The position numbers and the translations under genes were made by a program. A stretch of 64,000 nt of DNA from NCBI RefSeq assembly GCF_002214565.1, contig NZ_CP015106.1:1-64000 (forward strand), given 5' to 3'. Shown here one piece after another: positions 14,272 to 40,582 of this stretch. Position 1 is the first letter of the stretch; every line of letters begins with the position of its first letter. The notes under the pieces are model-generated. The model worked only from the letters and a program-made list of their open reading frames with translations, did not search any database and was not told the DNA's origin. This stretch comes from Thermococcus radiotolerans (lineage in GTDB: Archaea; Methanobacteriota_B; Thermococci; Thermococcales; Thermococcaceae).

Positions 14272-14336
14272 GGTATCACCAGGAAGAGTTGGGGAAACCT
14301 TTTAAGGTTCTTTCGTTATTACGATTGGTGATGTTA

Positions 14337-36649: not shown

Positions 36650-37048
36650 TCAGACGACCTCAACCCCTACCTCCCGAATTTTGTCCTTTTCCAGCACAAA
36701 GGCCCCGTAGTTTCCCTTCTCGTCGACTACCAGCCAGACGACCGGCCAGAGCCTCATGCCCTTCAAGTCCCCGCCGCTCGGCCTCGGCGGGCACTTCAGG
36801 TGGGAATGGAAGATGCCGACAACCTCAAGGCCCCGTTCCTCGGCTAGGTCTATGGCCTCCACCATCTCGACCGGCTCCATCTCGAAGGCGGTGGCTGAGT
36901 TCAGCCTGTTGGGGACGAAGCGGACTTCCTCGACTTCAATCCGCTCCCCGTTCCTGCGGCCGAAGAGCATGCTGCATATTTCAATCCGCGAATTTTCCGC
37001 CGCTTTGATAATCCGCTTTAAATCTTCCCGGCGAATAACCATCATCAT
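36650..37048 (-). CDS. JAMM/MPN+ metalloprotease-like protein
   Basis: About 132 residues from the ATG triplet at 37048/37045/37042. Complete JAMM zinc site: Glu in EICSMLFG, then HSHLKCPPRPSGGD (H-x-H-x(7-10)-S-x2-D). Archaeal relatives cleave isopeptide-linked small modifier proteins (SAMPs) or their precursors. The frame is open upstream, but a TATA box at 37069-37076 fixes the start near 37045. It converges with the MobB-like gene and is divergent from a 49-residue protein gene. Confidence 0.85.
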   Translation of the reverse strand: MMMVIRREDLKRIIKAAENSRIEICSMLFGRRNGERIEVEEVRFVPNRLNSATAFEMEPVEMVEAIDLAEERGLEVVGIFHSHLKCPPRPSGGDLKGMRLWPVVWLVVDEKGNYGAFVLEKDKIREVGVEVV

Positions 37049-37112: not shown

Positions 37113-37262
37113 ATGAAATGGGCCCTTACACTCCACGGTGGGGAAAACCACGGCGAAACCATGATCCTTCACGCCGACAGCGCTGATGAAGCTAGGAGGA
37201 TGGCGATAAGGGAAATGAAGCGGAAGGACGCAAGGGTCTTCGAGCTGGAGAAGATCGAGTGA
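37113..37262 (+). CDS. 49-residue microprotein 1
   Basis: 49 residues from ATG 37113 with GGTGA upstream. Pattern beta-beta-alpha-beta: MKWALTLHGG, GETMILHADS, ADEARRMAIREMKRKD, ARVFELEKIE. The next gene but one (37457-37606) encodes another 49-residue protein with the same layout, so they are probably paralogues. No known domain. Alkaline-acidic mix, soluble. Function unknown. Confidence 0.7.
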   Translation: MKWALTLHGGENHGETMILHADSADEARRMAIREMKRKDARVFELEKIE

Positions 37263-37424
37263 TTCTTCTTCCCCAAATTATTCTTTCCGGCACTCCCTGC
37301 GGCGGAGCGACACTTGTGGCTATCGCGACGATGATGCACACCAACGTATATTTTAGTCTGGACTGCTATGTGCGTTAATGTCGAAATCTGTGCAACAATG
37401 TTTTTAAATCCTTCCAATTTTTTC

Positions 37425-37441
37425 TATCACTCGCAGTGATA
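37425..37441. promoter_or_regulatory. Thermococcales glycolytic motif (TrmBL1/Tgr site)
   Basis: TATCACTCGCAGTGATA is an exact match to the motif TATCAC-N5-GTGATA bound by TrmBL1 (Tgr), the sugar-responsive regulator of Thermococcales. It lies about 16 nt downstream of ttttaaat (37402-37409), at the expected transcription start of the gene at 37457. Motifs downstream of the TATA box repress, with sugar relieving repression. Confidence 0.85.
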
Positions 37442-37456
37442 TACTGGGGTGATGGC

Positions 37457-37606
37457 ATGCTCGTGAGAATCGTCTACTACATGAACAACACCCTCCCCAG
37501 GGAGAGGATAGTCGTCACCAACGACATAAAGAAGGCTGAGAGGATAGCGCGGGAAGAAATGGAAAAGCTCCGCGCGAGGGGCTACGAGCTCGAGTGGGTG
37601 GCCTGA
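37457..37606 (+). CDS. 49-residue microprotein 2, under a glycolytic motif
   Basis: 49 residues from ATG 37457 with GGGTGA 4 nt upstream. Pattern beta-beta-alpha-beta: LVRIVYYMNN, RERIVVTNDI, KKAERIAREEMEKLRARG, YELEWVA. Same length and layout as microprotein 1. The promoter has a TATA box at 37402-37409 and an exact TrmBL1/Tgr site at 37425-37441, so it should be induced on sugars such as maltodextrin. It is the only gene in the window with this site. Function unknown. Confidence 0.75.
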   Translation: MLVRIVYYMNNTLPRERIVVTNDIKKAERIAREEMEKLRARGYELEWVA

Positions 37607-38191: not shown

Positions 38192-40582
38192 TCATGCTCC
38201 GCGGGACTGCTTGAACTGCTCCTGAATCTTCCTGTAGTACTCCATGGTCTCCTCGCCCACGCTCGGGCCTATCTTCTTCATGGCCTCCTCGAAGTCCTTC
38301 ATCGTTACCTTGACCTTCTGCCTTATCTCGTCGGCCTTCATGCCGGGCCTGATGATGCCCTCCTGCAGTCCCCTGCGCATGGCCAGCATCGCGGCCTCCC
38401 TGACCACCGCCTCGATGTCCGCTCCGGTGTATCCTTCCGTCTTCTTCGCCAGCTCTTCGAGCTCGACGTCCTCCGCGAGCGGCACGTTCCTGGTGTGCAC
38501 CTTGAATATCTCCAGTCTGGCCTTCTCGTCCGGCGCCGGAACTAGTATGAGTCTGTCGAACCTGCCCGGTCTAAGCAGGGCCGGGTCTATGATGTCCGGC
38601 CTGTTCGTTGCGGCAATGACGACCACTCCGCTGTTCTCCTGGATTCCGTCCATCTCCGTGAGCAGCTGGTTGATGAGTCTGTCGGTTACGCGGTTGACGT
38701 CGGTTCCCCTGCGCGGGGCGATTGCATCAATCTCGTCTATGAATATCACCGTCGGAGCCGCCTGCCTAGCCTTCCTGAATATCTCCCTGATGTTCTTCTC
38801 GCTCTCGCCGACCCACTTGCTGAGTACCTCGGGTCCCTTGATGGCTATGAAGTTCGCCTCGCTCTCGTTCGCCACGGCCTTGGCCAGGAGAGTCTTACCC
38901 GTTCCGGGCGGACCGTAGAGGAGTATTCCCTTCGGCGGGGTAATTCCGAGTCCCATGAAGGCCTCCGGGTACTTGAGCGGCCACTCGACGGCCTCGCGGA
39001 GTTCCTCCTTCACGTTCTCAAGGCCACCTATGTCCTCCCAGTGGACGTTCGGAACCTCCAGGAGCACCTCTCTGAGGGCTGACGGCTCGACCATCTTGAG
39101 GGCCTCGTAGAAGTCCTTCCTGGTGACCTTGAGCTCCTCAAGGACTTCCTTGGGTATGTGCTCTGCCTCGAAGTCTATCTTGCCCTCCTTGATGAGCCTC
39201 CTCAGGGCGGCCATGGCTGCCTCTCTCGCGAGTGCGGCTAAGTCGGCACCGACGAATCCGTGGGTGACCTCGGCCAGCTCCTCGAGGAGTCCATCGATAA
39301 GCCTGGCCTTGACCTCGTCGTAGAGCTTCTCGTCTATGCTCCTGAGTATCTCCGGAATCTCCTCATCATTCGCGTTCTTAACCTTCATCAGGGCCCTCTC
39401 GGCGCTCTCGCGGTAGGCGTCGTTCCTCTCCAGCTCCTCGAGTATCTCGATGACCCTGCCCCTCCTGAACTCGGGCTCGATGGGCATTCCCCTGGTGTGT
39501 ATCTGAAGTATCTCCTTCCTGCCCTTCTTGTCGGGAACGCCGACCTCGAGCTCGCGGTCGAACCTTCCTGGCCTCCTGAGGGCCGGGTCTATGGCGTCCG
39601 GTCTGTTGGTTGCGCCTATGACTATGACCTTTCCGCGGCTCTTGAGGCCGTCCATCAGCGTGAGCAGCTGGCTGACTACGCGCTTCTCGACCTCGCCGTG
39701 GGTCTCCTCCCTCTTCGGGGCGATGGCGTCGATCTCGTCGATGAAGATTATCGCCGGCGCGTTCTCTTCAGCTTCTTTGAAGACCTCCCTGAGACGCTCC
39801 TCGCTCTCGCCGTAGTACTTGCTCATTATCTCGGGGCCGTTTATCGCAATGAAGTGAGCGTTCGCCTCGTTCGCTACTGCCTTTGCGAGGAGTGTCTTAC
39901 CCGTTCCGGGCGGACCGTAGAGCAGGACACCCTTAGGCGGCTCGATGCCGAGCTTCTCGAATATCTCCGGGTGCTTGAGCGGGAGCTCAATCATCTCCCT
40001 GACCTTCTGGATGACATCCTTGAGGCCGCCGATGTCCTCATAGGTCACTCCTAGCGCGGCAGTCTTGGAGACCTCCTTGACTGGCTTCTCGCTGACCATG
40101 AACTCGGTGAACTCGGTTATCTGGACTATTCCAGCCGGGGTCGTCGCGGTGACCACAAAGGTGAGCTCCTGGCCGAGGATGCCGACCTTGATGTAGTCTC
40201 CCCTGACGACGGGCCTTCCGACGAGCCTGCTGTGGAACCACTCAACGAAGTCGTGGCCGAAGCGTATGGGTTCGGTCGGGGCCACTATGACCTTCTTCGC
40301 CTCCTTGACCTCGGCCTTTCTCACCGTAACCTCGTCACCGAGGCCGACACCGGAGTTTTTCCTTATGGTTCCGTCCATTCTGATGATGCCCAGCCCTTCG
40401 TCCTCCGGATAAGCCGGCCAGACAACGGCAGCGGTGTTCTTGGTTCCGATTATCTCGATGATATCACCGCTCTGGACTCCAATATCGCGCATTGACTTGC
40501 GGTCTATTCTTACTATTCCCCTCCCAACGTCCCTCTGGTAGGCAGAGGCGACCTTGAGCTTAACTTCCCTCTTTTCGGTCAT
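38192..40582 (-). CDS. CDC48/VAT-type AAA ATPase 1
   Basis: 796 residues: N-terminal double-psi-barrel domain (about 1-185), two AAA modules (about 190-480 and 520-760), each with Walker A GPPGTGKT, Walker B IFIDEIDA and pore loops KYYG and KWVG. It extracts and unfolds proteins for the proteasome. A charged insertion of about 50 residues lies in the small domain of the first module. The C-terminus (QFKQSRGA) lacks a Hb-Tyr-X proteasome tail. SD GGAGGTGA at ATG 40582. It sits next to hsp20, as in Pyrococcus. Confidence 0.94.

Follow-up and report, generated by a model that had tools for sequence, protein, structure and literature searches.

Among archaeal regulons, that of TrmBL1/Tgr is one of the most thoroughly studied; the targets known so far are for the most part enzymes, transporters and regulators. 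In Pyrococcus furiosus, ChIP-seq, footprints and in vitro transcription show that TrmBL1 sits on Thermococcales glycolytic motifs (TGM, TATCAC-N5-GTGATA) only when sugar is absent, 28 promoter sites being occupied in gluconeogenic conditions, as against none on starch (PMC4706686). A TGM downstream of the TATA box leads to repression that is relieved by sugar (PMC4706686, PMC4158304), and TrmBL1 repressed nine out of nine tested templates with this layout (PMC4706686). The site of TrmB (TACT-N3-AGTA) is distinct from the TGM of TrmBL1/Tgr (PMC4158304). In T. kodakarensis, the gene for Tgr (TK1769) adjoins that for glycogen synthase (tk1768) and the maltodextrin operon (PMC4158304, PMC12628685).

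The window analysed here is a stretch of 64 kb from Thermococcus radiotolerans. It contains the gene of a 49-residue microprotein (P0001) which, judging from sequence comparison, is very probably a real and conserved small-protein gene under direct control of TrmBL1 (Tgr), and which would thus be a predicted addition to the known regulon. It shares with this regulon an exact TGM at a TATA spacing like that of GAPOR, enolase and aldolase in the same genome. It differs in that its product is an orphan microprotein, whereas the established targets code for enzymes, transporters or transcription factors, and in its apparent absence from the genus used for ChIP. The TrmBL1 ChIP list of P. furiosus likewise includes small hypothetical singletons, such as PF1085.1n and PF1025, whose promoters are followed by a TGM (PMC4706686). 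They need not be the same gene as P0001, since searches of the Pyrococcus-like genus (g3) gave no P0001 orthologue.

A predicted TrmBL1 operator in the promoter of P0001

The features of the locus are listed in Table 1. The sequence is as the initial annotation had described it, with an exact TGM about 16 nt past a TATA box and before the start codon, and the motif is also the only one of its kind in the window, where the runner-up (position 14317) has two mismatches. The TATA core starts 22 nt before the TGM, and the spacer of the motif (TCGCA) matches the ChIP-derived TrmBL1 consensus [CT][ATC][AG][CA][AG] (PMC4706686). That P0001 forms a single-gene unit, as had also been proposed, is plausible from the sequence because the following gene runs convergently and the preceding one has a promoter of its own.

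Table 1 Features of the P0001 locus (positions within the window).
Feature	Position	Strand	Basis or remark
Prok-JAB/desampylase-like (JAMM-like) gene	36650-37042		flanks the P0001/P0002 pair
P0002, 49-residue paralogue	37113..37262	+	CTTATAA promoter, no TGM; immediately upstream neighbour of P0001
TATA box of the P0001 gene, TTTTTAAAT	37401..37409	+	sequence; about 1 bit per column in the motif-anchored orthologue alignment
Exact TGM (TATCAC-N5-GTGATA), TATCACTCGCAGTGATA	37425..37441	.	0 mismatches; predicted operator for TrmBL1, covering the region where transcription starts
Shine-Dalgarno-like G-rich stretch, GGGGTGAT (GGGGTGA)	37446..37452	+	sequence; conserved G-rich columns 21-25 nt past the motif start
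P0001, 49-residue microprotein gene	37457..37606	+	ATG at 37457, stop ends at 37606; orthologues, pN/pS, predicted fold
CDC48	38192-40582		flanks the P0001/P0002 pair

TGM sites and the TrmBL1 regulator in T. radiotolerans

The genome of T. radiotolerans (1,868,990 bases, one contig) holds three exact TGMs and 15 sites with at most one mismatch, whereas a reversed-pattern control over the whole genome gave three sites at this threshold and no exact one; as the TGM is palindromic, the search registers each site twice. Apart from the P0001 site there are 14 with at most one mismatch, and 13 of them stand before sugar or glycolysis genes, as named by NCBIfam or Pfam. These genes encode glycolytic enzymes (class I FBP aldolase, ADP-glucokinase, glucose-6-phosphate isomerase (PGI), FBP aldolase/phosphatase, GAPOR, enolase and triose-phosphate isomerase), enzymes of polysaccharide metabolism (maltodextrin phosphorylase, branching enzyme, a GH57 amylase/glucanotransferase and two amylase-type enzymes) and a sugar-type solute-binding protein for transport. 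Since these other sites precede sugar genes, the TGM evidently functions as the glycolytic operator in this genome. A phosphofructokinase considered at site 867555 was rejected, its NCBIfam name being ADP-glucokinase. The 14th other site (genome position 1133392, one mismatch) precedes an ABC transporter ATPase gene that has no clear sugar role and is divergent from a lipoprotein-like ORF.

Spacing between TATA and TGM is 22 nt at P0001, 20 nt at the aldolase, GH57 and enolase genes, 21 nt at GAPOR and 22 nt at the phosphorylase, and the motif lies downstream of TATA, the layout associated with repression, at P0001 and most other sites. At the genes of FBP aldolase/phosphatase (1399039) and PGI (868245), the TGM is located upstream of a TATA-like element, in the activation layout; for PGI of P. 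furiosus, the motif is given as downstream (PMC4706686).

TrmBL1 itself is encoded at G000:C1:1720368-1721387 (NCBIfam equivalog NF047390, 664 bits against a cut-off of 650), next to a glycogen-synthase-like ORF, with the TGM-bearing solute-binding gene some 2 kb away, so that glycogen synthase and maltodextrin-type neighbours are shared with the Tgr locus of T. kodakarensis. The regulator is found in 84 of 94 Thermococcaceae genomes, including every P0001-bearing genome that is at least 90% complete. P0001 is absent from all four genomes of at least 90% completeness that lack TrmBL1, but this co-occurrence was set aside as evidence for a link, being confounded by ancestry because three of these four genomes belong to one genus. 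P0001 is also absent from several Thermococcus and all g3 genomes that carry TrmBL1, and since TrmBL1-bearing genomes without P0001 are many, it is dispensable for the TrmBL1 regulon as such. With a conserved motif, the regulator present and the other sites marking sugar genes, sequence evidence favours the membership of P0001 in the glycolytic regulon that had been proposed for it.

Conservation of P0001 and its upstream motif

Sequence searches detected P0001 orthologues in 61 of the 94 Thermococcaceae genomes, distributed over four genera, and orthology across genera is supported by a shared neighbour order (JAMM-like, MobB, LSm-like and CDC48 genes). Conservation of the motif upstream of these orthologues had been set beforehand as a refutation test for the initial annotation, which withstood it. 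Scored at starts from -38 to -27 before the ATG (a 12-position window), the best match stayed within three mismatches in 57 of 61 orthologues, within two in 55 and within one in 43, and was exact in 19. Shuffled upstream regions reached two mismatches in 0.08% of cases and never fewer, which argues against a chance origin given the 43 orthologues with one mismatch or none. In the 57 orthologues the motif starts at -28 to -36, mostly at -32 or -33. It persists at 43-50% protein identity in four genera, although genomes that are related do not count as independent cases.

A motif-anchored alignment of 49 upstream regions, one per distinct protein, places the highest column information in the GTGATA half (1.7-2.0 bits) and in TCAC (1.3-1.9), followed by TATA at about 1 bit and flanks mostly at 0.1-0.4. 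Mismatches are concentrated in the left half, the GTGATA half being fixed. The motif is missing from its usual position in four orthologues (L029, L048, L052 and L053), one of which (L053) has a TGM with one mismatch overlapping the Shine-Dalgarno sequence.

The distance from motif to ATG is about 32 nt in all genera and thus steadier than that from TATA to motif, which is mostly 20-24 nt in genus g1 and mostly 42-43 nt in g2, g4 and g5 (L050, L051 and L054-L065). The g1 spacing puts the TGM over the predicted transcription start. The extra 21 nt in the other three genera correspond to about two helical turns, and because the motif lies that much further from TATA, the geometry of blocking may differ there. 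The Pyrococcus-like genus g3 yielded no P0001 orthologue by sequence or profile search, and weak g3 matches (E 0.003-0.03) were discarded as partial matches to other ORFs. P. furiosus, the host of the TrmBL1 ChIP experiments, appears to belong to this large genus.

The adjacent paralogue P0002

The paralogue P0002 was overlooked in the first reading of the window. It is divergent from the JAMM-like gene and occurs in 53 of the 94 genomes, all in genus g1, as opposed to the four genera of P0001. The two families align without gaps over residues 18-48 (hhalign E 6e-6, probability 85%), and P0002 is the next-best match to the P0001 family profile in many genomes. Both families share the invariant residues A27, A31, E44 and E46, and predicted strand and helix boundaries are identical. 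None of 30 P0002 loci has a TGM upstream, which makes this gene an internal negative control for the motif of P0001.

Coding constraint and predicted fold of P0001

Values of pN/pS between P0001 orthologues range from 0 to 0.29, which argues for a real protein under purifying selection; its length is kept at 47-49 residues, and nine residues are invariant in 40 sequences. R4, E44 and E46 are conserved charged residues. AlphaFold2 predicts a beta-beta-alpha-beta domain with a mean pLDDT of 93.

Searches against Pfam, NCBIfam, PHROGs and PADLOC returned nothing over cut-off or at a meaningful E-value, in agreement with the initial view of P0001 as uncharacterised. Pfam DUF188, the best family match, was rejected at 12.8 bits against a cut-off of 24.3, as were FtsH and other PDB sequence matches to the P0001 profile, all of them short and partial. 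No relatives outside Thermococcaceae were detected among 115 genomes of the phylum, and a scan of named genomes gave P0001 matches only in metagenome-assembled Thermococcus or Thermococcales. P0001 thus appears to represent an orphan family restricted to Thermococcaceae. No report on the gene was found in the literature searched, although the TGM/Tgr papers of 2006 and 2007 may mention it.

A Foldseek search of the PDB with P0001 and P0002 gave no match that reached E 0.001. Ranked by TM-score, the top hit of P0001 was the phage antitoxin Dmd (TM 0.76-0.79, rmsd 1.3-1.5 A) and that of P0002 was T7 Gp2 bound to RNA polymerase (TM 0.77, probability 1.00), neither of which is significant (E above 0.1), with identities of 9-22%. 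Dmd inhibits RnlA and LsoA (PMC5308261), and RNA polymerase epsilon has been described as a structural relative of Gp2 (PMC7722741). What the predicted P0001 fold has in common with Dmd of phages T4 and RB69, T7 Gp2 and epsilon (YkzG) is a size of about 50-60 residues and a beta-beta-alpha-beta arrangement. These known proteins act by binding a larger enzyme, but P0001 differs from them in sequence (no relation), host, target and regulation, and the fold matches are non-significant. The modelled resemblance is therefore at most a weak hint at the mode of action and not a sign of membership.

Proposed regulation and alternative explanations

By analogy with P. furiosus, the location of the TGM downstream of TATA would imply that P0001 is repressed without sugar and induced on maltodextrin, binding by TrmBL1 and the direction of regulation both being drawn from this comparison. 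In the absence of sugar, TrmBL1 would occupy the motif over the predicted start, block recruitment of RNA polymerase and keep P0001 off. Upon entry of maltodextrin, the sugar would free TrmBL1 from the operator and P0001 would be made alongside the enzymes of glycolysis and starch degradation. The protein would then be a compact beta-beta-alpha-beta domain, most likely without a catalytic role, that perhaps binds a larger partner during growth on sugar. Action through a partner protein is a tentative proposal derived from the predicted fold class, though the most economical one. The further suggestion of the initial annotation, that P0001 may be a small modulator of sugar metabolism, is conjectural.

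The operator itself could be read differently. Its steady distance from the ATG, mostly -32 or -33 across genera and more constant than that to TATA, and the capacity of TATCAC to pair with GTGATA would suit an RNA hairpin in the 5' untranslated region. In g1, however, transcription is predicted to start inside the motif, which would cut the stem, the left half drifts while GTGATA is fixed, and the TGM also precedes many unrelated sugar genes. Among 46 distinct sites no pair has changed on both sides, and pairing amounts to 85.9% compared with a shuffled mean of 86.2%. With no compensatory changes and pairing no better than in shuffles, a protein-DNA site is favoured and the hairpin is scarcely credible. 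Equally hard to credit is a spurious ORF, with the TGM regulating a non-coding RNA, or else the divergent JAMM-like gene. Although 49 codons are few and in g4 and g5 the TGM promoter region directly adjoins the divergent JAMM-like gene, the P0002 gene separates the two in g1, and the low pN/pS, stable length and invariant residues all speak for a protein. A TrmB-family regulator other than TrmBL1 might instead recognise the motif. T. radiotolerans encodes further TrmB-like proteins, and for one TGM-like site of T. kodakarensis the repressor proposed to bind is not Tgr but another one (PMC12628685). Yet the exact TGM is the defined TrmBL1/Tgr site, TrmB uses another sequence, and TrmBL1 accompanies P0001 in all sufficiently complete genomes, which leaves such a substitution improbable.

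Alternatively, P0001 could belong to the TrmBL1 regulon yet serve core machinery instead of sugar metabolism. Induced by sugar, it would act as an adaptor or an inhibitor, along the lines of Gp2, epsilon or Dmd, with RNA polymerase, the ribosome or an enzyme of protein turnover as its target. The nearest folds of both paralogues and the conserved neighbours (JAMM desampylase-like, LSm-like and CDC48 genes) point in this direction, but the fold matches fall short of the E-value threshold at low identity, small beta-beta-alpha-beta domains recur widely, and the P0001 neighbourhood is not universal, so that this role seems unlikely. A more specific and very unlikely version is that P0001 and P0002 can replace each other as binding subunits of a single core machine, for example RNA polymerase, which is switched by sugar via P0001. 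If true, the split regulation of the two genes would mean that sugar reprograms a core machine through a microprotein, beyond transcription-factor occupancy alone.

For direct control by TrmBL1, the favoured reading, the operator is the central argument: P0001 holds one of three perfect copies in the genome, and the site is kept as the protein drifts to about 43% identity. This retention suggests that P0001 is a part of the glycolytic switch without an assigned function. Having a TGM-free paralogue alongside, in a genus with tractable genetics, makes the idea directly testable. In two related genomes (G018, L131:3236; G025, L132:4385), a second exact TGM, which has no exact counterpart in the 64-kb window, is located 2-3 kb from P0001 between the LSm-like gene and a gene of 275 residues.
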